This document shows positions 317 through 27,184 of a DNA stretch of 47,281 bases, piece by piece. Every line of letters begins with the position of its first letter. Within the stretch, counting starts at the first letter, position 1. The position numbers and the translations under genes are program-made. This stretch comes from Desulfatibacillum sp. (GTDB lineage: Bacteria > Desulfobacterota > Desulfobacteria > Desulfobacterales > Desulfatibacillaceae). The stretch covers positions 1-47,281 of the forward strand of contig JAEINP010000041.1 in the NCBI GenBank assembly GCA_016342355.1. The letters are read 5' to 3'. The notes below the pieces were generated by a model, which was given only the letters and a program-made list of their open reading frames with translations, was not told where the DNA came from and made no database searches.

Positions 317-1252
317 ATGCAATTAATCGAGAATCTGGAATCCATTAAACAGCCGTTTTCAAAGGCTGTTATTACCATTGGGAATTTTGACGGGGTCCAT
401 ATAGGACATCAGGCCCTTTTTTCCGAAGTCATCGAGAAAGCGGATGCCATCGGGGGCGATTCCCTGGCCATGACCTTTGAACCCCATCCGGCCCGATTTT
501 TGAAAAAGGAGAATTTTCCGCCACTTATCACCCTGTATGAACAAAAAGTGGAGCTTATCAGTCGCACGGGCCTGGACGCCCTGGTGGTGATTCCCTTTGA
601 TCAGGCCTTTGCCTCTCTCAGCCCCAGGGAATTTGTGGAGGACGTTTTAATCAGGCGTTTGGGTGTAAAAGTGCTGGTGGTGGGACCGGACTATTGTTTT
701 GGAAAGGGCCGGGAGGGCAACGTGGAGTATCTGCAGAATATCGCCGCGCCCCTGGATTTCGAACTCATGGTGGTGCCCTGGATCGGGCAGGCCGGACCGG
801 ACGGGGAGCGCATTAGCAGCACCCGCATCCGGGATCTGGTTGGCGACGGCAAGATTGAGGAGGCCAAACGGCTTTTGGGCCGGGACTATCAGGTGCGCGG
901 GGTGGTGGTGAAGGGCCGGAACCGGGGGGGTAAAATGTTGGGTTTTCCCACGGCCAACATTCATCTGAGCGATGAGTTATGCCCCAAGGCCGGGGTGTAC
1001 GCCGTGACCATGCAGGTGGGGGACACTCTTTATCCTGCTGTGGCCAATATCGGGTACAGTCCGACCTTTGACGATCATATTTTTACGGTGGAAGTGCACG
1101 CCCTGGATTTTTCCGGGGATCTGTATGACCGGAAGATCAAGGTGAATTTTATTTCCAGGCTGCGGGGAGAGGTAAAGTTTCCCAATATTGAGGCCCTGAT
1201 CGAGCAGATTCGGGAGGATATCAAAGTCGCCAGGGGGATACTTCCCCTATGA
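317..1252 (+). CDS. ribF: Bifunctional riboflavin kinase / FAD synthetase
   Basis: Cytoplasmic enzyme that phosphorylates riboflavin to FMN and adenylylates FMN to FAD. The 311-residue protein has the family's normal two-domain order. The N-terminal nucleotidyltransferase domain carries GNFDGVHIGH at residues 22-31 and a later ISSTRIR motif. The C-terminal riboflavin kinase domain starts near residue 185 with GVVVKGRNRGGKMLGFPTANI. The ATG at 317 is chosen because homology begins just after it and GGGAG lies about 12 bases upstream. An in-frame GTG at 275 would add 14 residues with no family similarity. The gene heads a packed same-strand run and its stop overlaps the next start by four bases. 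Confidence 0.95.
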   Translation: MQLIENLESIKQPFSKAVITIGNFDGVHIGHQALFSEVIEKADAIGGDSLAMTFEPHPARFLKKENFPPLITLYEQKVELISRTGLDALVVIPFDQAFASLSPREFVEDVLIRRLGVKVLVVGPDYCFGKGREGNVEYLQNIAAPLDFELMVVPWIGQAGPDGERISSTRIRDLVGDGKIEEAKRLLGRDYQVRGVVVKGRNRGGKMLGFPTANIHLSDELCPKAGVYAVTMQVGDTLYPAVANIGYSPTFDDHIFTVEVHALDFSGDLYDRKIKVNFISRLRGEVKFPNIEALIEQIREDIKVARGILPL

Positions 1253-2355
1253 AGGGAAAAAAACTTATTATTTCCCTGGTGATCGGATTGGCCATATCCG
1301 GGGCGGGCCTGTACTTTTCTTTCAGGAATGTCCAGTTTGGCCCTTTGATGGAGTATATTGCCTCCATCAATTACTGGTGGACCCTGCCTGCCTTGGTCAT
1401 GGGCATGGGAAGTTTTTTCCTGCGGGCGTGGCGTTGGCAGGTGATCATGGGCTCGGTGGAGCGCATCAGCTTTTGGGAAGCCTACCATCCCATGATGATC
1501 GGATTCATGATGAACTGCATCCTGCCGGGCAGGGTGGGTGAACTGGCGAGGCCCGCCATCTTAAAGCGGCAAAAGGGCGTGCCTTTTTTTCAGACCCTGG
1601 CCACGGTAGCTGCGGAAAGAGCTTTTGACCTGATTATCCTGTTAGGGCTTTTCGCCATTGTGACCTCTTATGTGCAGATTGACCCCAACCTGGAGGTTGT
1701 GGTGGATCAATACACCATTTCCGGCCAGGTGTTGCAGCGTGCGGCCACGGCCATGACGCGCCTTTCCCTGGTGCTCATCACAGGCATCATCCTGGTGAGC
1801 TTTGAATTTACCCGAGGATTGATGGAGCGGGTTATCTTGGCCAGCCCTTTGGCGTTGTTTTTCCTGAGCCTGAACACCCAGGAAAAAATCCGGAAGGCTG
1901 TTTGTCAGCCCATTGTGGCGATCATGAACGGAATCGCCCAGGGTTTTGCGGCCATAAAGAATTTTGGAAAGGTGGCTTTATGCCTGGGGATTTCCGTGGT
2001 AATCTGGGTACTGCTGGCATCGACGTATTTTGTCATGGTCCAGGGATGCCCTGGGATTTCCATGTCGCCCCTGGAATTGACCGCCATGATGGTTATTATA
2101 TGCTTTGCAATCTCCTTGCCTTCGGCTCCGGGTTTTTGGGGGCTTTGGGAGGCAGGGGGGATTTTCGCCATGGTACTGTTTGGCGTGGCCCGGGATGAGG
2201 CCGCAGGATTCACCCTGGTCAACCATGTGATTCAGTTGATGGTTCCCATAGCCATGGGCCTTGTGAGCGTGGTCATGACAGGGGTCAGCATCAGGCAGAT
2301 ATCGAGCGCCAGTACGGAACTGGCTGACAAGGATACTCAAACAACAGAGAGGTGA
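1249..2355 (+). CDS. YbhN/AglD-type integral membrane protein (flippase-like domain)
   Basis: A 368-residue polytopic inner-membrane protein of the lysylphosphatidylglycerol synthase TM-region/UPF0104 superfamily. Its first membrane segment lies at about residues 7-27, and further hydrophobic segments cover much of the rest. The signature [12 protein letters not shown] segment is at about 97-108, and a conserved [16 protein letters not shown] loop follows near 284-299. Members are proposed to be involved in lipid or polyprenyl-linked substrate handling, but no reaction can be assigned from sequence. It overlaps ribF by ATGA, so it is probably translationally coupled. The C-terminal tail is polar. 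Confidence 0.8.
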
Positions 2356-17228: not shown

Positions 17229-19553
17229 CTATCCCATGGGGTCGTTTTCCACCAACGCCCAGATGCCGCAAGGACACGCACCGGCGCAAAAACCGCATCC
17301 AATGCATTTTTCCGGGTTCACCACCATTTCAAAACGTTTGCCAGGTTCTTCCACCCGGGAGATGGCAGCCTGGGGGCAGATCGCTTCGCAGATTCCGCAG
17401 TCGCGGCAGGTTCCGCAGGAGGAGCAATCCATAGCGCATGTCTTCACCTCTTCAAACTCCTTGATGCGGGGATTGAAGTAGGAAAGGCTCACGCGGGTTT
17501 TATCGATCTGGGGTTTTTCCAGAGCCTGGGGCCGTTTGCCTTCCAGGATGGCGTTAATGGCCATGGCGGCCTTGCGCCCGGCGCCGATGGCGTCGGTAAG
17601 GAGTCCGGGCTTAACAATATCGCCGATGGCGAAAAAGGTTGAGTCCGTGGTCTGGAAGTTTTGGTCCACTTCCACAAAGCCCCGTTGTGTTTTGACCGTT
17701 TCCGGCAGGAAGCCCAGGTCTGGGGCATCGCCGATGGCGACCACCACCGTGTCTGCATCCAGGAAATCTCCATTGGTTAGAGCCACGCCCTTATCGGTGA
17801 TTTCTTTGGTGAACACCGGCCACAAAAAGATTGCTCCCACTTCTTCGGCAGCTTTTCTTTCCTCGCCAAAAGAAGCGGGTTTTTGCACGTCGATAAGCGT
17901 GATATGGGTGGCGCCCAGGCGATGGGCCTCGGTGGCCACGTCGCATCCCACGTTTCCGGCGCCGATAATCACAACGCTTTTTCCGGGCCGGGCGTTTTCC
18001 GCTTTGGCCTTGCCAAGGAAATCCATGGCGGAAACGGCGTTTTCGATTCCTGCCATGGGGGGCATTTTGGGCTTGCTGGCGCCAGCTGCCACCACAATGA
18101 ATTCATGGTCTTCTTTCAGCCTTTCCACATCCTCTTTTTGGAGTTTTTGCTCCAACTGCACATGGGACAGGGCCTTTTCCATGCGTTCCAGTTCGGAATC
18201 CAGAACTTCTTTGGGAATCCTGGTGGAAGGAATGACCGAGGACATCTTGCCGCCCAGCTTCTTGTCCGTGTCGTAAATCACGGCCTCGTGTCCGGCCATG
18301 CGGAGCTGCCACGCCACGGAGATACCGGCCACACCGCCGCCGATTACGGCAATCTTCTTGCCGGATAAGGGCGGCAGTTCAGGCATGTTGGCTCTGAGGC
18401 TGGCCTTGCCCAAAACCTTGATGTCGATGGGCGCCATGCCCGAAAGGTTGCGGGTACAGGCCTGCATGCACAGGTTGGGGCAAAGGTATCCGCACACCGT
18501 GGCAGGGAAGGGAGTGAATGACAAGGCCATGTCCACGGCTTCGTCCACCTTGCCTGCCCGGATCATTCCCCAGCGTTGCTGGACCGGAATGCCCGAGGGA
18601 CAGGATGCCTGACAGGGTGAGGCGTAGACCTGATCTTCCCAAACCGGGACAAAACGGCGGAACTCCCCAGTGGTGATGACCGGGATGGGATCGTGTTCCA
18701 CCTTGATCAGATCCCCCACCAGGCCGCCGGGGCCCAGTTCCTTTTCCCATACATCTTTGGCGAATTCCTTGAGAGACATCCGGGGGGAAGACTCTCGCTG
18801 CATGGGAGATTTAGCTGCAATAAGCTGCCAATCCCCGGGCTTGGACAGTTCCTCGAAAAGTTCCGGGCGCTGGATTCGGTCCAGGAAAGTCTTGAGGTTG
18901 GAGAACAACCAGTCCAGGGTTTCCTGGTCGATGGGAACGATTTGGGCGTCAGCTTGGGAAAAACCTTTAAAGGGGCCGCGGACAAAAACCTGTCCGCGCA
19001 CCATGCCCACGCAAGGGCGGTATCCCAATACATTTTCAGATGATTGGGGATTGAATCCGCAGACCACCGCCACGCCGCCAGCCATGAATTCGGCGAAATA
19101 GTCGCCCACCGAGCCAAGGACCCAAAGTTCCGGGGGGGCGAAACGGGGGTTGGCCTTGGTCATGGTCATGGCACGGGAACCGATGTTTCCGCCCACAAAG
19201 ATTTTACCTTGGGCCATGGCGTTTCCGGTTCCGTTGGTGGCGTTGCCCAAAATGGCGATTTCAGCACCGGCATTGAGCCAGCCCGTGTCATCGGATGCCG
19301 GACCATCCAGGGTGATCCTGGTATTGGGAAAACCCATGGAGCCCAGGCGCTGGCCCGGGGATCCTGTCACCATGATGTTTACAATGTCATCGCCGGCATT
19401 CCACAGCCTGCCGCCAATCCCATGTTGACCCGCGGCGTCCACTTCCAGGTATCGCACACCGGAAGCCACGGCGTTTTGTATTTGTTCTTCCAGGGTGCGG
19501 GAATCTATCCGATGTCCCAATTCTATTCCCGAAAGCCTGCATACGTTTTTCAT
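17229..19553 (-). CDS. Glutamate synthase: GXGXG domain fused to GltD-like oxidoreductase and ferredoxin
   Basis: 774 residues. Order: GltB alpha-subunit C-terminal GXGXG beta-helix domain (about 1-235; GPASDDTGWLNAGAEI, GGNIGSRAMT); cysteine-rich linker as in GltD/DPYD (CQASCPSGIPVQQRWG, CGYLCPNLCMQACTRN); FAD-binding GGGVAGISVAW; NAD(P)-binding GAGNVGCDVATEA; FAD motif FFAIGDIVKPGL; and a two-cluster ferredoxin tail (CGTCRDCGICEAICP, CIGCGFCAGACPCG). It should pass electrons from a nicotinamide or ferredoxin donor to the FMN subunit encoded just upstream. The ATG at 19553 has GGAG eight bases upstream; an in-frame start seven codons earlier is less likely. Last gene of the three-gene unit. 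Confidence 0.9.
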   Translation of the reverse strand: MKNVCRLSGIELGHRIDSRTLEEQIQNAVASGVRYLEVDAAGQHGIGGRLWNAGDDIVNIMVTGSPGQRLGSMGFPNTRITLDGPASDDTGWLNAGAEIAILGNATNGTGNAMAQGKIFVGGNIGSRAMTMTKANPRFAPPELWVLGSVGDYFAEFMAGGVAVVCGFNPQSSENVLGYRPCVGMVRGQVFVRGPFKGFSQADAQIVPIDQETLDWLFSNLKTFLDRIQRPELFEELSKPGDWQLIAAKSPMQRESSPRMSLKEFAKDVWEKELGPGGLVGDLIKVEHDPIPVITTGEFRRFVPVWEDQVYASPCQASCPSGIPVQQRWGMIRAGKVDEAVDMALSFTPFPATVCGYLCPNLCMQACTRNLSGMAPIDIKVLGKASLRANMPELPPLSGKKIAVIGGGVAGISVAWQLRMAGHEAVIYDTDKKLGGKMSSVIPSTRIPKEVLDSELERMEKALSHVQLEQKLQKEDVERLKEDHEFIVVAAGASKPKMPPMAGIENAVSAMDFLGKAKAENARPGKSVVIIGAGNVGCDVATEAHRLGATHITLIDVQKPASFGEERKAAEEVGAIFLWPVFTKEITDKGVALTNGDFLDADTVVVAIGDAPDLGFLPETVKTQRGFVEVDQNFQTTDSTFFAIGDIVKPGLLTDAIGAGRKAAMAINAILEGKRPQALEKPQIDKTRVSLSYFNPRIKEFEEVKTCAMDCSSCGTCRDCGICEAICPQAAISRVEEPGKRFEMVVNPEKCIGCGFCAGACPCGIWALVENDPMG

Positions 19554-19604
19554 ATATCTAACTCCATCCGGCAAAGAGCCGGCCTCTGGTTCTTTATGGG
19601 GCTC

Positions 19605-21239
19605 CTATACCACATAGTTGATGCTGAGCCTTTCCGCCACACGGTAATCGTCAATTCCTAATGCATCGGACATGCCGATGGGCAGGGAAGTGGAGCGGCC
19701 CAGGGGGGCCACGATTTTTTTCAGCTCCGTATCAAAGGAAAGGAACATGTCCACCAGGCGTTGGGCCACCTTTTCAGGGTCCAGGCGTCTGTAAAGCCTG
19801 GGGTCTTGGGAGGTAATTCCCTTGGGGCAACGGCCGATGTTGCAAATATTGCAACGGTCGGTTTCGCTTCCCAGGCATCCGGCGGCGGCCTGCATTACAT
19901 ATTTGCCTGTTTGCACTCCGCTGGCGCCAAGCATGATGAGAGCTGCTGCGTTGGCAGCCAGATTGCCCCGCTTGCCGATTCCGCCTCCTGCGAACAACGG
20001 AAGCTCATTTTGCTTGCCGATTTTCACCAGATTGAGATAGCAGTCCCGGATATTACTGGCTATGGGATGTCCCATATGGTCCATGGACACGTTGTAGGCC
20101 GCACCGGTTCCTCCGTCTTCGCCGTCAATGGCCAGACCCGCTGCAATGGGGTTGCGGGCCAGGTTGTTTAACACGGCCAGGGAGGTGGATGTGGCTGAAA
20201 TTTTGGGATACACAGGCACCCGGAATCCCCAGGCCATGTACATGGACTGGGTCATTTTGGCCACAGCCTCCTCAATGGAGTATTTGGTCTGGTGCGTGGG
20301 AGGGCTGGGCAGGCTCACGCCCTGAGGCACGCCCCGGATGGCGGCGATGAGCTTGTTAACCTTGTGCCACATCAGGAGGCCGCCGTCGCCGGGCTTCGCC
20401 CCCTGGCCGTACTTGATTTCCACGGCGCAGGGATCCACCTTCATTTCCGGCAGGGCATGGATGATTTCATCCCATCCAAAATATCCGGAAGCAATCTGGA
20501 GAATGACATATTTGAGGAACCGGGACCTCAAGAGCCGGGGAGGGCATCCGCCTTCTCCGGTGCTAATGACCACGGGCAGGCCCACCTGCTCGTTCAGATA
20601 GGTGACGCCCATCTGGAGCCCTTCCCACATGGTGGGGGAGAGGGCGCCGAAGCTCATGCCGCCTATTATTAAAGGATAGATTTCCCGAACCGGGGGAATC
20701 CAGCCTTGCTCCCTCTGGAGCTTGAGGTTTTCCTCGGGAGGCAGAACCCTGCCCAAAAGGGTGGTGAGCTCGAATTTGTGGCGTCCCGCATCCAGGGCCG
20801 GGTCCGTGAGCATGGAAATCCGGGTGAACTTGATCCGGTCCAGGATGCCAGCAGGATCGTTTCGCCTGCCGCCCCGGCGGCGGGGAACTCCCCCCTGGTT
20901 ATTGTGAAACCGAAGCTTGTCCGCCTCGTCCGTATGCATGGGCATGATGGCGTCGTTGGGGCAAACCAGGTTGCACATGCCGCAGCCCACGCAGGCATTG
21001 TCGGGAGTGGTTTTCTGGCGGACGCCGTAAAAGGATTCAAAGGTGTTTTCCGGCGGCTTTTCCAGGCCCATGGGTGGCTGGACAACCCTTTTACGGTACA
21101 CGGCAAGTTCCAGGGCAAGCATGGGGCACACGGCGGTGCAACGTCCGCACAAGGTGCATTTATCCTTATCCCATGCAATCTGCCAGGGTAAGTCTTTTAC
21201 GCACAGAGTGCTTGGGGTAATGATTGTGTCTGCCTGCAT
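19605..21239 (-). CDS. Glutamate synthase FMN-binding subunit with N-terminal ferredoxin domain
   Basis: 544 residues. Two 4Fe-4S motifs lie at the N-terminus (CTLCGRCTAVCP at about 31-42, CVGCGMCNLVCP at about 100-111). The GOGAT central domain follows: IIGGMSFGALS, STGEGG, KYGQGAKPG, DGEDGGTGAA. The 3Fe-4S ligand block CNICNIGRCPKGI is at about 467-479. It uses ammonia channelled from the amidotransferase subunit to convert 2-oxoglutarate to glutamate. The ATG has AGGAGG upstream. It overlaps the amidotransferase gene by 43 bases, so the two are translationally coupled. This is the archaeal/anaerobe split arrangement rather than one large GltB. Confidence 0.93.
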   Translation of the reverse strand: MQADTIITPSTLCVKDLPWQIAWDKDKCTLCGRCTAVCPMLALELAVYRKRVVQPPMGLEKPPENTFESFYGVRQKTTPDNACVGCGMCNLVCPNDAIMPMHTDEADKLRFHNNQGGVPRRRGGRRNDPAGILDRIKFTRISMLTDPALDAGRHKFELTTLLGRVLPPEENLKLQREQGWIPPVREIYPLIIGGMSFGALSPTMWEGLQMGVTYLNEQVGLPVVISTGEGGCPPRLLRSRFLKYVILQIASGYFGWDEIIHALPEMKVDPCAVEIKYGQGAKPGDGGLLMWHKVNKLIAAIRGVPQGVSLPSPPTHQTKYSIEEAVAKMTQSMYMAWGFRVPVYPKISATSTSLAVLNNLARNPIAAGLAIDGEDGGTGAAYNVSMDHMGHPIASNIRDCYLNLVKIGKQNELPLFAGGGIGKRGNLAANAAALIMLGASGVQTGKYVMQAAAGCLGSETDRCNICNIGRCPKGITSQDPRLYRRLDPEKVAQRLVDMFLSFDTELKKIVAPLGRSTSLPIGMSDALGIDDYRVAERLSINYVV

Positions 21240-22333
21240 ATGTGAACCTCCTGACGATCTGAAGAAACAATTGCCGTATCCAGATGCATTGGTTGAAAAT
21301 CCATACTTTTGTCACGATCGGGAAGCACTGCGTCCAGGCCGCAGGTTTCCGAGGAAAACACCCAGCAGCCCGGTCTGCCGCCCACGATGCCGGGCCGGAG
21401 TTTTTTCCGGTCCTGGACCATGAACAAGGCTTTGTTGGGCAGGCAGCCAATGACGCAGTTGGGGCCGTCAATGATCAGTCTGCGGCAGGTTTGCCTGAGT
21501 TGTTTCAGGAAAACCTTGTTGGGGTGGTCTTCCATCTCGTCATCGGACAAGGGGGTGATGATATGTTTATAAGCCTCCAGGGGAAGGCCCAGCTTGTAGG
21601 CTGAATAATGGAGAATATGGGCGAAAACCTCGGAATCCGATTGGTAGCCGGTGTATCCGGGAAATCCCCTGGAAGACAGGTATTCCCTGATGGGCACGAA
21701 GGCGGTGTTTTCCCCGTTGGTCATGGTGGCTATCCCTTGGATGAAAAAGGGATGGCAGGCGTACAGGTTAATGGCGTAGTTGGTGTTTTGCCTGCCTTGA
21801 GCCATGATGACTCTCGCCATGAGCTCCTTGCGGTCCAGTCCCAGGTGTTGGACCACGGTGAGGGGGTCCCCGATTTCCTTGATCATGATGGTATCGGGCC
21901 AGAAACTGAAGACGATCATGTCCTGCTCCGCCTGTCCCATGGCCCGGAGATCCAGGCGCACCTTGAGCAATTCATTGGCCCGCCTTTCCGAGGTGTAGCT
22001 GTGCCATTCATCGGGGTATTCATAAGCCCGGATCAGGTACACATCCCGCTGGGGGATGCCGGGAGGGCTTGGCTTGGGAGCCTTGATGGTGACCTTGTAT
22101 TTGGTGGTGAAGCCCAGCTCCATCATATAGACGTCGAGCTTTTTAAGGCCTTTGGAGGTGAATATCCCGGAAAGCACCGGGGCGTCCTTAAGGTCTTCGA
22201 AGGGTCCGCTCAGGTCGGAGAGGAGCAGGCCAACACCTGAGCCGTCGTGACCTTCCCGCATCACGTCCAGGGCCTTTGCTGCCACCAACGGGGAGAATGG
22301 CTCGTCGCTAGTCATGGCAAATAAGCGGCACAT
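21197..22333 (-). CDS. Glutamate synthase amidotransferase (class II GATase) subunit
   Basis: 378 residues corresponding to the N-terminal glutaminase domain of GltB. It starts Met-Cys-Arg-Leu-Phe; removal of Met would expose the catalytic Cys1 of class II amidotransferases. TNGENTAF and GYTGYQSDSEVFAHIL match the GATase II substrate-binding blocks. The ATG at 22333 is chosen because the cysteine must follow it. GGAG lies 11 bases upstream, and an in-frame start seven codons earlier would bury the nucleophile. First gene of the three-gene operon. Confidence 0.92.
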   Translation of the reverse strand: MCRLFAMTSDEPFSPLVAAKALDVMREGHDGSGVGLLLSDLSGPFEDLKDAPVLSGIFTSKGLKKLDVYMMELGFTTKYKVTIKAPKPSPPGIPQRDVYLIRAYEYPDEWHSYTSERRANELLKVRLDLRAMGQAEQDMIVFSFWPDTIMIKEIGDPLTVVQHLGLDRKELMARVIMAQGRQNTNYAINLYACHPFFIQGIATMTNGENTAFVPIREYLSSRGFPGYTGYQSDSEVFAHILHYSAYKLGLPLEAYKHIITPLSDDEMEDHPNKVFLKQLRQTCRRLIIDGPNCVIGCLPNKALFMVQDRKKLRPGIVGGRPGCWVFSSETCGLDAVLPDRDKSMDFQPMHLDTAIVSSDRQEVHICRQTQSLPQALCA

Positions 22334-22407
22334 TTTTGAATTAACTCCTTTCAAAAACTACAATATTGTTGTTTTTAGGAGAATAAACTGCTTTCTCGTA
22401 AACAAAT

Positions 22408-22639: not shown

Positions 22640-24292
22640 CTAGGCGTTGAGGATCTTCCTGGCAGTCTCATCGTTGGCATCCGTAATATATGTGACGCCT
22701 GTTTCCGTAGCGGTTTCCCGGTTGGCGGCGAAGATGTCGTTCCGGGTGATCTGGCTGATGCGGAACTTCCTGGCGCCGGCCATGAGTTGCTGGAGGCCGC
22801 AGGACAGCTTGTCGGCCATGGTGTAGAAGGCGATGGCGCCGTAGGGGATTTTTTTCATTTCGTCTTTGCCCAGTTTTTTCTCTACATCAAAGTATGCGGC
22901 AAAGAGTTCTTCGGCGCTGTTGCCGAGGCTGGAGACGGTCTTGGGCAGGGTGTCCCAGTTGCCGCAAACCGCTTCCCGGCGTTCCGGATGGAGGGCGCCT
23001 TCGATGTTGGAGCCCAGGAATCCGGGAACCATGATGGCCCGGCCCATGCACACCAGTTTGGTGAAGGGAGCGCCCAAGGCCAACGCCTTGAAGATATGGT
23101 CTTCCAGGGCGAAGCCTCCGGCAAAGGACATGTCCACCACGTCGTCGCCGCGGGCAGCCAGGATGGAAGCGTATTCATAGGCTTTGGAATGGAGGTTGAT
23201 GGAAGGCACGCCCCAGCTCTGCATCATGTTCCAGGGGCTCATGCCCGTTCCGCCGCCGGAGCCGTCAATGGTCAGGAGGTCCAGCTTGGCGTCGGTGGCG
23301 AACTTGATGGCCATGGCCAGTTCTTCCATGCCGTAGGAGCCGGTTTTGAGGGTGATTCTTTTGAAACCGATGCTCCGAAGGTAGTCCACGCTGGACATGA
23401 AGTCTTCACGTACCTTGTCCACGGTGCCAAGGTTGGTTCCGCCCAGGCGGCTGTGGCGAGCAAAGGACTTGATGGCGCCCTCTTTGAAAGCGGTCTGGAC
23501 TTCGGGCTTGCTGGGATCGGGGTCAACCACGTATCCGCGGTTTTTCAGGAACAGGGCGTAGTCCAGGCTGGTGACCTGAATTTCGCCGCCGATGTCCTTG
23601 GCGCCCTGGCCCCATTTGAGCTCGATGATGCATTTTTCGCCGTATTTGTCCACCACGAATTCGGCCACGCCGTTCCGGGTGTCTTCCACATTAAGCTGGA
23701 CTATAATTGCTCCATATCCATCGTAGTAGCGCAAATAGCCGTCAATACGCCTTTCCAGTTCGGGAGCGCTTTTGATTTTGCCCTTTTTTTCGGATCCGGG
23801 AGTGATGTCGGATTTTCTGTCAACACCCACCACGTTTTCGCCGATGACAACGGGGATGCCGCACAGGGCGCCGCCGATGGAAAAGGAATCCCAATACTTA
23901 GCTGCGATGAAGGTGGAGCCCAAAGCACCGGTCATGAGGGGGATGCGGGCCTTGGTTTTGACTTCCCTGCCAAACTCTGTTTCCAGGTTAACGTTGGGAA
24001 AAATGCAATCGTCGGGATCGGTGCTGAGGCCCTGGTTCAGGCCATGGGCGCCGTAAGCGTATCCCTGGACCCTAAGAGAATTGTAGGAAACCCCTACATG
24101 AGTGGTGTTGTTGGCGCCGGCGGTAACCAGCCCAAAATCCCTGGGGTACAGCAGCTTGCGGCCAACCAGGCTAGACATCCAGGTTTCACATTTGCCCTGG
24201 CAGTCGGCGCGGCACAAGGTGCACAGGCTTGACTCAGTGGGATTACCGCGATTGGTGGTTCCGATGGCGTCATTGCTTTTGGAAAAACGCAT
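22640..24292 (-). CDS. Stand-alone FMN-binding glutamate-synthase-family protein
   Basis: 550 residues. A short N-terminal cysteine cluster (CTLCRADCQGKCETW, about 24-38) precedes a GOGAT-type FMN barrel with ELKWGQGAKDIGGEI, HSRLGGTN, and TIDGSGGGTGMSPW. It is a paralogue of the FMN subunit at 19605-21239. It lacks the long ferredoxin N-terminus, and I do not see the CxxCxxxxC cluster motif at the usual late position. The exact reaction is therefore unsure: amino transfer to 2-oxoglutarate is inferred from the family only. The ATG at 24292 has GAGGGAG eight bases upstream. Expression appears controlled by an ANTAR-type leader and a GAF-ANTAR protein encoded divergently. Confidence 0.82.
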   Translation of the reverse strand: MRFSKSNDAIGTTNRGNPTESSLCTLCRADCQGKCETWMSSLVGRKLLYPRDFGLVTAGANNTTHVGVSYNSLRVQGYAYGAHGLNQGLSTDPDDCIFPNVNLETEFGREVKTKARIPLMTGALGSTFIAAKYWDSFSIGGALCGIPVVIGENVVGVDRKSDITPGSEKKGKIKSAPELERRIDGYLRYYDGYGAIIVQLNVEDTRNGVAEFVVDKYGEKCIIELKWGQGAKDIGGEIQVTSLDYALFLKNRGYVVDPDPSKPEVQTAFKEGAIKSFARHSRLGGTNLGTVDKVREDFMSSVDYLRSIGFKRITLKTGSYGMEELAMAIKFATDAKLDLLTIDGSGGGTGMSPWNMMQSWGVPSINLHSKAYEYASILAARGDDVVDMSFAGGFALEDHIFKALALGAPFTKLVCMGRAIMVPGFLGSNIEGALHPERREAVCGNWDTLPKTVSSLGNSAEELFAAYFDVEKKLGKDEMKKIPYGAIAFYTMADKLSCGLQQLMAGARKFRISQITRNDIFAANRETATETGVTYITDANDETARKILNA

Positions 24293-24381: not shown

Positions 24382-24420
24382 AAAAAAAAAGACACCTACC
24401 ATAAAAAGGTAGACGTCTTT
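24382..24420 (-). terminator. Leader terminator ahead of the GOGAT-like gene
   Basis: On the minus strand AAAGACGTCTACC pairs with GGTAGGTGTCTTT (13 bp including two G-U pairs) around TTTTTAT. Nine T follow. It lies about 90 bases before the start codon of the gene, so it is an attenuator rather than an end-of-gene terminator. Its left arm overlaps the second ANTAR-type hairpin. Confidence 0.88.
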
Positions 24421-24461
24421 GTCCCTTCACTACTGAGGCCTTTGTGCGCACGCCATTGTGC
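24411..24461 (-). promoter_or_regulatory. ANTAR-type tandem hexaloop antiterminator RNA
   Basis: Two small hairpins are encoded on the minus strand. P1 (24461-24448) has stem GCAC/GTGC and loop AATGGC. P2 (24424-24411) has stem GGAC/GTCT (one G-U) and loop AAAGAC. Both loops are six bases with A at position 1 and G at position 4, the published signature of ANTAR protein binding sites. P2 uses the same bases (24420-24411) as the left arm of the terminator, so forming P2 would prevent termination. Stems are only 4 bp, so protein binding would be needed to stabilise them. The regulator is encoded about 120 bases away. Confidence 0.75.
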
Positions 24462-24483
24462 TGCTGCGGCCTTGATTCAGTAA

Positions 24484-24512
24484 TACTTAATATTGGATTG
24501 TTTTTTTGTCAA
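24484..24512 (-). promoter_or_regulatory. Candidate promoter for the GOGAT-like gene
   Basis: A perfect TTGACA -35 on the minus strand is followed after 17 bases by TAAGTA, a poor -10; neighbouring registers are AT-rich but no better. Transcription would start about 18 bases before the first ANTAR hairpin, which fits a leader-controlled unit. Confidence 0.42.
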
Positions 24513-24543
24513 TAACTTTTTTTGGGTCGCCCGTCTCCCTGCG

Positions 24544-24573
24544 TTGACTTTTTTAAGAAAACAATGCTAATCA
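24544..24573 (+). promoter_or_regulatory. Candidate promoter of the GAF-ANTAR gene
   Basis: TTGACT followed after 17 bases by CTAATC (or after 18 by TAATCA). The predicted start of transcription falls within a few bases of the ATG at 24581, which also lacks a Shine-Dalgarno. The mRNA may therefore be leaderless. The -10 match is weak. Confidence 0.3.
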
Positions 24574-24580
24574 ATCATCC

Positions 24581-25297
24581 ATGGAAAAAGTATCGCCTCA
24601 AGAATATGACGCCTACATCAAGGGTCTAATGGATATCAGCCGGGCCATCACCTCGGAATTGTTCCTGGAGGATATCCTCAGGCTCATTGTCCTGGTGACC
24701 GCCAAGGTCACCGGGGTGGACATCTGCTCCCTGTGGTTGGTGGAGGACGGAAGGGAACCGGGCAGGCCCGTGATCCGGCTGGCCGCCACCCAGGCCATGG
24801 ACCCGGACTATGTGAAGGACAGGACCCTGACCATGGGGGAGGGAGTAGTAGGATATGTGGCTGAAAAAAACAGCTCCCTGATTTTGGAGGACGTCCTCCA
24901 GGAACCCCGGTTTAAAGAAAAGGATATGGCCCGCAAACTGGATTTGGTGTCCATGATGAGTGTGCCCATGAGCCTGGGCGACGGCGAGGTGATAGGGGTG
25001 CTAAACTGTTTTACATGCAACCCACACTCCTTTTCGGAAACCGAAATCAACTTGGTGAGAACCGTGGCTAATCAGGCCTCCCTGGCCATCCACAACGCCC
25101 GCCTTATGGTCCGCACCAAGGTCATCGAACAGGAACTGGCTACCCGGAAAACCATAGAAAAGGCCAAAGAAATTGTCATGGCCCGCAAGGGCCTGTCCGG
25201 AGACAAAGCCTTCCGCTGGATTCAAAAAAAGAGTATGGATAACCGCAAGAACATGAAGGAAATCGCTGAAGCCATCATTCTTTCAGAAGAGATGTGA
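24581..25297 (+). CDS. GAF-ANTAR transcription antiterminator
   Basis: 238 residues. An N-terminal GAF sensor domain (about 20-175; TMGEGVVGYVAEKNSSLILEDV is typical) is followed by a short coiled helix and a C-terminal ANTAR RNA-binding domain (about 180-236). The ANTAR pattern of Ala/Arg, IEKAKEIVMARKGLS, Ala-Phe-Arg-Trp and a terminal KEIAEAIILSEE helix is present. ANTAR proteins bind paired hexaloop hairpins and prevent transcription termination, often of nitrogen-metabolism genes. The ligand of the GAF domain is unknown, and no phospho-acceptor receiver domain is present. Divergent from the GOGAT-like gene whose leader has matching hairpins. No Shine-Dalgarno is seen before the ATG. Confidence 0.88.
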   Translation: MEKVSPQEYDAYIKGLMDISRAITSELFLEDILRLIVLVTAKVTGVDICSLWLVEDGREPGRPVIRLAATQAMDPDYVKDRTLTMGEGVVGYVAEKNSSLILEDVLQEPRFKEKDMARKLDLVSMMSVPMSLGDGEVIGVLNCFTCNPHSFSETEINLVRTVANQASLAIHNARLMVRTKVIEQELATRKTIEKAKEIVMARKGLSGDKAFRWIQKKSMDNRKNMKEIAEAIILSEEM

Positions 25298-25508: not shown

Positions 25509-26810
25509 CTACCGCAGCTTAGCCCAGAAAAGACGGGCCGTGCCCGGCCCGGGGTTATACCACCGGGTGGGAGTCTGGTCCTGCAAATAGACCAAATCCC
25601 CTGTCTTGGCTTTGTGGATTTCATCCCCGAAACTGATCTCCAGGGCTCCCTGGGCCACGAAGCCCATCTCCTGGCCCCGGTGAGAGAAAAAATGCCCTGC
25701 AACAGTCTGTTCCGGTTCAATCTCTATCATAAAAGGCTCGGCGTTTCCTTCAAAATCCAGGGGGGTGAGCATTTTCACCGATCCTTCATATTCCCCAATG
25801 TTGGCCAGGGTCACCTGGGAGGCTTGGCTTGCGGGGAAAACAATCTGGGAGCGCTTTTCAAAGTCGCTGGAAAACAGGTACCCGGGCGACACATTGAGGA
25901 TTTCAGCCATTTTCAGGAGCCCGGGAATGGAGGGGTAAATGGAATTATTTTCCACCTGGGATATGGTGCTGGCGGTCACGCCCACCATTTTGGCCATCTG
26001 AACCTGGGAAAGCCCCTTTTTTGTCCTCAATTGCTTGATGCGTGTACCAAGGTCCCTGAAGCCCGCTCCCCCCCGGTCTCCGGAGAAGATGATGTCAGCG
26101 CCCTTTATTTGGTAATGGTGGGGCTGTTGGATTCGGTCCGGCGTCCTTCCTTCGGCCTTGATCACGGATACGGAGGAGGTTCCCCGTTTGATGGACAATT
26201 CCATGGCCACTTGGGCGATCTGGTTGATCTGGGCCCTCAGCCTTTCCGAATGCGCTCCTTTTTCCATGATCCAATAGGCCACTGTGGAGAGGTCATACAA
26301 CCGGGGGCATGAATGGGAGTAAAAGCTGCCCACCTGGTCTTCTCCGCCCCATACTTCCTGCATGCCGGTCAGGCTTTCAAAGACAAGGTGCACGTCACCG
26401 TTGCATTTTTCGTGGGCGGAATACAGGGCGTCATCAAATGCCTTAATATCTCCGGGGGTCTCCACGCTGATCACTGTCTGTTTGATTTTTTCCGGGGCGT
26501 TCTCCAAAAATTTCAAAAAGGCCGAGGCGCCTTTGCCCTTGCCGTATGTAAAACAATCCAGAACAGTGAGCAGGGGGTTTTTGCCCATGGACCCCAGGCG
26601 TTCAAACAGGTTTTTGGGAGACCGGTCAAAACTGATGAAAATAACCGGGATTTTATTTTCCAGGGAAGTCCTGACAAAGCGATGCCAGAAGGTGCTGGCC
26701 AGGTTGCCTGATTCATCGTACCACACCACATTATCCCCAAGAAGCAGGCCCCCTAATATTTCATCCAGGCCTTTGACTCCCGTGGAAACTTCTTTGCGTT
26801 TGGTTATCAT
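25509..26810 (-). CDS. KaiC-like/XRE/cupin fusion regulator
   Basis: 433 residues with three parts. Residues about 1-250 resemble the RecA/KaiC-type ATPase fold (VSTGVKGLDEILGGLLLGDNVVWYDESG, VIFISFDRSPKNLFERL). However, the Walker A Gly-Lys-Ser/Thr is missing, so nucleotide hydrolysis is doubtful. Residues about 262-318 are an XRE helix-turn-helix (IKQLRTKKGLSQVQMAKMVG, then TASTISQVENN). Residues about 345-433 are a cupin with FFSHRGQEMGFVAQG and a TGDLVYLQDQTPTRW block. XRE-cupin proteins are usually metabolite-responsive repressors. The KaiC-like part may be a sensor. The ATG at 26810 has AAGGAGA nine bases upstream. Downstream target unknown, possibly itself. Confidence 0.78.
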   Translation of the reverse strand: MITKRKEVSTGVKGLDEILGGLLLGDNVVWYDESGNLASTFWHRFVRTSLENKIPVIFISFDRSPKNLFERLGSMGKNPLLTVLDCFTYGKGKGASAFLKFLENAPEKIKQTVISVETPGDIKAFDDALYSAHEKCNGDVHLVFESLTGMQEVWGGEDQVGSFYSHSCPRLYDLSTVAYWIMEKGAHSERLRAQINQIAQVAMELSIKRGTSSVSVIKAEGRTPDRIQQPHHYQIKGADIIFSGDRGGAGFRDLGTRIKQLRTKKGLSQVQMAKMVGVTASTISQVENNSIYPSIPGLLKMAEILNVSPGYLFSSDFEKRSQIVFPASQASQVTLANIGEYEGSVKMLTPLDFEGNAEPFMIEIEPEQTVAGHFFSHRGQEMGFVAQGALEISFGDEIHKAKTGDLVYLQDQTPTRWYNPGPGTARLFWAKLR

Positions 26811-27184
26811 GGTGTGCGGTCTCCTTGGTTTTCTGCAATTTTCAGCAGGGACATCCCTTATCAGGCCCATGCGGTTGAATCGTTATGACTCCTCGTCATT
26901 ACGGTTTCATACTACGATTATCAAAGTCCCGGAAAGGAGGCAAGATGAAAACCCCGCATGCTATTACCTGACAACATAGCGGCGCCAAACTTCTTGCAAC
27001 ATTGGCATGTTTTTATCCCCTGGGCATTCACCCATAGGTTGGCAATCCGCAAAAGGAATTGACCGCATGGCAGTGGGGGCGCCTCAGTAAAACCAAATAT
27101 GCCCCTGCTTATGGAATTGTTCGTACCAGGATGGGGGCAAAATTTCGTGGGAAATTATGGGTCCAGGTCTTTTTTTTCCTCCCC
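26811..27184. other. Upstream region of the KaiC/XRE/cupin gene
   Basis: About 370 bases between this gene and the pilin terminator. The only structures I can support are the promoter-operator listed at 26881-26924. Frames in this stretch are short, start without Shine-Dalgarno and look non-coding. The remainder (26925-27184) shows nothing I recognise. Confidence 0.5.
26881..26924 (-). promoter_or_regulatory. Promoter with overlapping palindromic operator
   Basis: CGTTATGAC and GTCATTACG form an inverted repeat with 8 of 9 positions matching and a 5-base centre (26881-26903). On the minus strand TTGATA (26924-26919, 5/6 to -35) lies 17 bases from TAATGA (26901-26896, a weak -10), so the palindrome covers the presumed -10. 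It sits 70 bases before the start of the XRE-containing gene, suggesting autorepression. Read by eye; no expression evidence. Confidence 0.45.

Follow-up and report, generated by a model that had tools for sequence, protein, structure and literature searches.

We identified in the window, the whole 47,281-nt stretch of Desulfatibacillum sp. DNA analysed here (contig JAEINP010000041.1), a gene for a GAF-ANTAR protein that lies divergently beside a leader RNA with tandem hexaloop hairpins, and it is highly probable that the core of this arrangement is ANTAR antitermination, acting as a one-component switch on glutamate synthase (GOGAT) genes. The protein gene, the promoter-like boxes and the leader comprise the following features.

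24581–25297, plus strand: 238-aa GAF-ANTAR protein, encoded divergently to the GOGAT genes, with Pfam GAF and ANTAR domains
24507–24512, minus strand: -35-like box TTGACA, recognised by comparison across elements
24490–24485, minus strand: weak -10-like TTAAGT, a poor hexamer 16 nt behind TTGACA
24448–24461, minus strand: P1 hexaloop hairpin GCAC[AATGGC]GTGC, predicted inside an outer stem and covarying in relatives
24411–24424, minus strand: P2 hexaloop hairpin GGAC[AAAGAC]GTCT, mutually exclusive with the terminator
24382–24420, minus strand: intrinsic terminator, a 13-bp stem-loop (24420–24388) with nine T at 24390–24382

Two minus-strand hairpins with six-base loops carrying A1 and G4 had been described in the initial annotation, and both are present, at 24461–24448 and 24424–24411, with the stems of at least 3 bp expected of ANTAR RNAs. 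The second was said to overlap the left arm of the nine-T terminator, and indeed the 13-bp terminator stem takes up the entire P2 loop and 3' arm as its own 5' arm, so that P2 and the terminator exclude each other, as in ANTAR RNAs generally. Two further marks of this RNA type were found as well: the leader is conserved with compensatory base changes, and the same genome encodes an ANTAR protein. The 101-nt leader has a predicted folding energy of -34.4 kcal/mol compared with -23.65 (sd 2.86) for shuffled sequences (z -3.76; 0 of 200 shuffles as good), and its predicted fold consists of P1, inside the outer stem, and the terminator. At gathering score, Rfam matched a tRNA alone in the whole window; on the leader, with E up to 10, all matches were sub-threshold, and these, including the best (trpB motif, 20.9 bits against a cut-off of 59), were taken as chance.

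Behind the leader lie a gene that we labelled GltB2 for this analysis and three further split-glutamate-synthase genes, presumed to form one four-gene operon.

22640–24292, minus strand: GltB2, glutamate-synthase-domain protein, 550 aa (Pfam Glu_synthase 1.1e-11), the first gene behind the leader
21197–22354, minus strand: GATase-labelled protein, presumed operon member, 286-nt gap behind GltB2
19605–21239, minus strand: glutamate synthase FMN-domain protein with a ferredoxin domain (Pfam Glu_synthase 6.6e-56, Fer4)
17229–19574, minus strand: GXGXG and GltD-like NAD(P)H/FAD oxidoreductase with a ferredoxin domain (Pfam GXGXG 3.3e-10, Pyr_redox_2 2.2e-31)

The GATase-labelled protein had no match in Pfam or NCBIfam; we take it to be class-II glutamine-amidotransferase-like. 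Judged by where its homologues begin, GltB2 probably starts at ATG 24292 rather than at GTG 24451 of the longest open reading frame, and P1, P2 and the terminator would thus all be untranslated. In D. alkenivorans (L032:50-3739) a tandem GltB2 duplicate lies behind the leader, its copies 91.5% and 83% identical to that of the window. Of 42 elements (one row was dropped for short flank), 35, including that of the window, have a perfect TTGACA in the 80 nt upstream of them (0.84 expected from shuffles), and in 32 of these 35 it lies 41–62 nt before the element. A simple promoter scan returned no sigma-70-like site. From the TTGACA at 24512–24507, we infer a transcription start near 24475.

To compare the leader with those of relatives, hexaloop-plus-terminator scripts were run over loci L003–L031, and the arrangement was present in the ANTAR-gene flank of 15 of the 29 (L003, L006, L007, L010, L012, L015, L017, L020, L023, L024, L026, L027, L029, L030, L031) and, by eye, also in L028. 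A covariance model, R1, was made from an alignment of 15 elements that contained neither the window nor D. alkenivorans; adding these two gave a 17-row alignment. In the 5.26-Mb genome of the organism itself, this held-out model recovered the window leader as the sole good match (34.5 bits, E 1.7e-4 genome-wide, R1 E-values being rough to within about a factor of five), so that the covariance check proposed in the initial annotation came out in its favour. No second element was found in this genome, the next R1 matches having E-values of 7.89 and 8.95. The window element is among the weaker ones, ranking 39th of 43 by score. In a second set of orthologue loci, R1 matched 6 of 20 at E <= 0.01 (L032, L042, L043, L045, L046, L047).

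Conservation and covariation of the two hexaloop hairpins in related leaders were seen in both alignments. The 17-row MAFFT alignment, which was not fitted to structure, has 15 double-changed cells compared with 5.9 in shuffles; pairing of the terminator helix is kept across it, and P2 loop position 5 changes together with its terminator partner in three of the 17 rows (pair 62-98: GC 14, AU 3). The alignment of 43 leaders has 49 double-changed cells (16.4 shuffled) with double changes at seven pairs, a covariation of 0.353 (0.177 shuffled, at most 0.174 when slid) and 90.8% paired cells (at most 44.8% with the partner slid by one to three columns); these counts lean towards the model because the alignment was fitted to the model's structure. 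Its rows L043 and L088 hardly differ and may represent a single locus assembled twice. The 43 do not include the weak matches of genomes G048, G003, G006, G034 and G019 or the tandem second unit of G045. In P1, the loop has A1 in 42 and G4 in 41 of 43 rows; in P2, A1 is kept in 39 and G4 in all 42 rows, one row lacking P2.

Several departures from the common form were observed. L015 (2370–2530) has two tandem P2-terminator units behind one P1, thus perhaps two attenuators in series. In L028 (about 1231–1331, minus strand), by eye, the terminator loop is enlarged by an inverted repeat some 40 nt long, with both terminator arms kept. Before an amidotransferase-like gene, L094:1241-1299 (G004:C12) has one hexaloop beside a terminator and no P2 by eye; it is possibly a single-hexaloop target or a decayed one. 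D. alkenivorans has a further match (G001:C43, E 9.6e-4) with a P1-like hairpin, no P2 by eye and an unassigned first downstream open reading frame of 86 aa; it was excluded from the 43 as doubtful.

Elements co-occur with ANTAR genes. A GAF-ANTAR orthologue is encoded in 36 of 59 genomes (own included), and 20 further loci with one were found; elements at E <= 1e-3 are present in 28 of the 36 genomes with the orthologue versus 1 of the 23 without it, the lone exception (G039) being 65% complete. Removal of the 12 genomes known to supply model rows leaves 16 of 24 versus 1 of 23 (Fisher 8.5e-6), three further model rows not being matched to genomes in this exclusion. In a phylum sample of 297 genomes, the element was detected in 43 of 125 genomes with any ANTAR domain versus 4 of 172 without (1.8e-14), or 38 of 120 versus 4 of 172 after removal of the own genus and three model genomes. 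Counting against the antitermination reading, 8 of the 36 orthologue-bearing genomes have no element at E <= 1e-3. These eight include every ANTAR-bearing genome from other genera of the family, five in all (G002, G003, G004, G006, G007), of which three have weak matches (E 0.016 to 0.095). Also against it, model R1 found no element in 82 of the 125 ANTAR-bearing phylum genomes. The own genome has one ANTAR match, the GAF-ANTAR protein being its sole PF03861 match, and one good element, in keeping with the earlier description of the pair as a self-contained module.

The first recognised downstream gene of the 43 elements is GltB2 in 28 cases (17 window-like, the other 11 forming a second type with about 50% identity to the window's), FlpD in five, an amidotransferase-like subunit in four and glutamate dehydrogenase in three, while three elements precede no query protein. 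One of these three (L064) is followed by the beginning of a GATase_2-type glutamate synthase; the second (L043), on a contig that stops right after an ATG, matches L088, an element in front of GltB2; behind the third (L059), no gene could be recognised in the 457 nt left on the contig. With L064 and L043 resolved, 41 of the 43 elements are assigned to glutamate-synthase, glutamate-dehydrogenase or FlpD genes. FlpD-MetV-MetF operons were observed behind ANTAR elements at L085, L089, L092 and L139 (G024, G011, G022). Proteins downstream of FlpD at L085, L089 and L092 are alike in sequence to one another; two scanned after FlpD of L092 gave DUF5981 and MTHFR matches, and we take the DUF5981 protein to be MetV-like. 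At L085 the gene in the corresponding next position, scanned as a 297-aa fragment, had no Pfam match. Next in the operon of L092 (G022) are two Glu_synthase-domain proteins (1.9e-13, 5.8e-90), which would place genes for C1 metabolism, electron transfer and glutamate synthase under a single RNA.

A search of the phylum listed 55 matches, and the downstream genes were inspected for 26 new loci: 20 precede GltB2 (one weak, 37% over 81 residues), one precedes FlpD and five precede no query protein. L127 has an ammonium transporter downstream (first 100 residues scanned) and L134, by eye, an exported-looking protein. At L132, L135 and L138 the longest downstream open reading frame encodes an exported-looking protein of 259–267 aa; the three are mutually alike with a common GIDNYF stretch, and the first 100 residues of one had no Pfam match. 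The same RNA repeatedly preceding GOGAT, GDH and FlpD-MetV-MetF operons suggests one regulon.

In the GAF-ANTAR protein, Pfam matched GAF (3.1e-22, residues 29–170) and ANTAR (3.6e-19, residues 183–233; PF03861 at 68.7 bits against a curated cut-off of 27.3). The orthologue of D. alkenivorans DSM 16219 (NZ_FQZU01000032.1) is 84% identical, and an AlphaFold2 model (mean pLDDT 85.2) has a GAF fold, a long helix and an ANTAR bundle. More distant GAF-ANTAR relatives, 44–48% identical, occur in Firestonebacteria and Omnitrophota (L048–L051), and the stretches fetched around them gave no covariance-model match at E <= 1. The closest solved ANTAR domain by single-sequence search is 1s8n (E 1.7e-9), which we take to be that of Rv1626 of Mycobacterium tuberculosis; Rv1626 presumably differs from the GAF-ANTAR protein in its receiver domain and its targets. 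Six of the 11 RNA-contact residues of EutV, as given in PMC8934654, are identical here (R142, K143, K147, K149, M172, R175); Y164 is F, this position being Y in 14 and F in 7 of 21 aligned proteins, and four contacts differ (E160G, R168Q, N173D, R177N).

What the GAF domain senses can be approached through its relatives. A profile search of solved structures placed 3ci6 (PtsP) first (3.6e-20), followed by 3e0y (Geobacter GAF) and 3trc (PtsP), with further matches to Nlh1 (8e-13), a Nif-specific regulator (2.2e-5), cyclic-nucleotide phosphodiesterases and other GAFs; in a single-sequence search 3e0y ranked first, and Foldseek returned an HD-GYP protein first and PtsP GAFs next. A nitrogen-status molecule, glutamine or 2-oxoglutarate, is our best guess for the ligand, and a tentative one, because the domain is nearest in sequence to PtsP GAFs, the GAF of EINtr (PtsP) binds glutamine and the GAF of NifA responds to 2-oxoglutarate. 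Glutamine bound to the EINtr GAF inhibits the enzyme (PMC4848567). The alternative that the ANTAR domain uses the leader while GAF senses a non-nitrogen cue (redox, a nucleotide, a partner protein, or nothing) falls just short of an even chance. GAF domains bind many ligands, cyclic-nucleotide GAFs are among the Foldseek neighbours and all 21 aligned proteins have C49, while against this alternative stand the targets with assigned function, which are nitrogen-assimilation or FlpD-operon genes, and the best GAF sequence relatives among solved structures, which are PtsP proteins and the Geobacter GAF. The redox cue in particular, which the initial annotation had offered as one option, gained no support beyond the C49 invariance.

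A second regulator might also act on the ANTAR protein or the promoter, so that GAF-ANTAR would not stand alone; one such candidate is encoded in the window.

25509–26870, minus strand: KaiC-HTH-cupin protein, with homologues at L017:67-1386, L143:1097-2401 and L145:1148-2446 (domains scanned in the window and L143)

This protein, possibly a second regulator, is encoded next to GAF-ANTAR in the window, as are its homologues in L017, L143 and L145. The other candidate, a GAF-GAF-HisKA-HATPase kinase, is encoded in cluster L141, and L142 and L143 have proteins that resemble it in length and start. We nevertheless regard control by either as unlikely: KaiC homologues are present in 4 of 53 other loci, one of them weak and partial (many loci being short-flanked), and the Pfam scan matched no receiver domain in the ANTAR protein. 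In L143 the KaiC-HTH-cupin gene separates the ANTAR gene from the element and GltB2. GAF domains about 50% identical to the window's are encoded at L141:212-1930, L142:491-2209 and L143:4556-6271, on contigs shared with GAF-ANTAR and near GDH and/or GltB2; the L141 protein, which was scanned, is a GAF-GAF-HisKA-HATPase kinase, as is one from a different contig (L144). That the hexaloops are incidental, the leader being a plain terminator against read-through out of the KaiC-HTH-cupin gene, the nearest upstream minus-strand gene and one that points towards the leader, is very improbable, since the P1-P2-terminator set recurs with other upstream neighbours and on other contigs, in some cases divergent from the ANTAR gene and in others downstream of it, P1 covaries though it is no part of the terminator, and TTGACA stands just upstream of 35 of 42 elements.

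ANTAR antitermination, the reading that we prefer, has its mechanism set out by Ramesh et al. 2012 (PMC3369931), and a close likeness is EutV/eutP of Enterococcus faecalis, with dual A1/G4 hexaloops, P2 over an intrinsic terminator and an ANTAR dimer as reader (PMC3369931, PMC8934654). EutV differs in having a receiver domain driven by phosphorylation where the window protein has GAF, and the eut leaders in serving ethanolamine genes rather than GOGAT. The linker is an awkward feature that counts against the ANTAR antitermination reading: in the window 23 nt separate the contiguous stems of P1 and P2, whereas eut linkers are 5–12 nt, 14 nt cut induction drastically (PMC3369931) and an added 20 nt abolished antitermination (PMC8934654). 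For actinobacterial ANTAR RNAs, linkers of 2–25 nt were accepted (PMC8164766). Over 42 elements the linker has a median of 16 nt (range 3–43 nt). The predicted outer stem of the window leaves about 11 nt to P2, and across the set predicted outer helices bring the linker under the shuffled mean in 32 of 42 elements, a moderate effect in fold prediction on which we do not claim that outer helices shorten long linkers.

Putative ANTAR RNAs have been reported in Desulfotomaculum reducens upstream of glutamate synthase genes, in D. acetoxidans upstream of nitrogen genes and in Pelobacter carbinolicus upstream of nitrogenase genes (PMC3369931). They are the same RNA type with the same kind of target, also found by covariance search; the present case differs in the organism, the adjacent sensor gene, the leaders aligned across relatives and the additional GDH and FlpD targets. 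NasR/nasF of Klebsiella is likewise a one-component ANTAR system with its own ligand sensor at nitrogen genes, and differs in its NIT nitrate-sensing domain and in serving nitrate assimilation, compared with GAF and GOGAT here (PMC3369931, PMC7496416). Among the papers listed, judged by title and abstract start in a library short of most subscription journals, none describes this leader. There is also earlier work on GnfR of Geobacter. The window leader may already be contained in the 1,902-genome hit table (Table S2) of PMC3369931. The mechanism is thus known, and what is added is a candidate lineage regulon, drawn from sequence comparison, that includes FlpD-MetV-MetF operons.

We propose the following course of events. 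By default a transcript from about 24475 would form P1 and the terminator would end the RNA near 24382, leaving the operon off. In the active state of GAF, which we guess to signal nitrogen limitation, sensed through falling glutamine or raised 2-oxoglutarate, the ANTAR dimer would bind P1 and then P2, a successive binding view taken from PMC8934654. With P2 held, the 5' arm of the terminator would be removed and polymerase could read into the presumed four-gene operon. The earlier proposal that the GAF-ANTAR protein switches on the glutamate-synthase-like gene draws support from the conserved, covarying hexaloops, the held-out match and the co-occurrence, binding and antitermination being its inferred steps. 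A bolder version, in which GAF-ANTAR directly binds glutamine or 2-oxoglutarate and antitermination alone runs the GOGAT, GDH and FlpD-MetV-MetF-GltB operons in place of Ntr/PII, is doubtful, somewhat more so than the nitrogen-status ligand by itself.

If that version were true, RNA antitermination would do in these anaerobes what Ntr/PII does elsewhere, the FlpD-MetV-MetF-GltB operons would join folate C1 metabolism to glutamate synthase, and other ANTAR proteins would extend this control to an ammonium transporter in certain lineages of the phylum. The target set hints at a little-explored glutamate-synthase-like enzyme tied to C1 metabolism and electron transfer. A clean pair of sensor and RNA with dozens of aligned natural variants offers a route to the molecule read by GAF-ANTAR, and bears on how nitrogen assimilation is kept in step in anaerobes that are genetically hard to work with.
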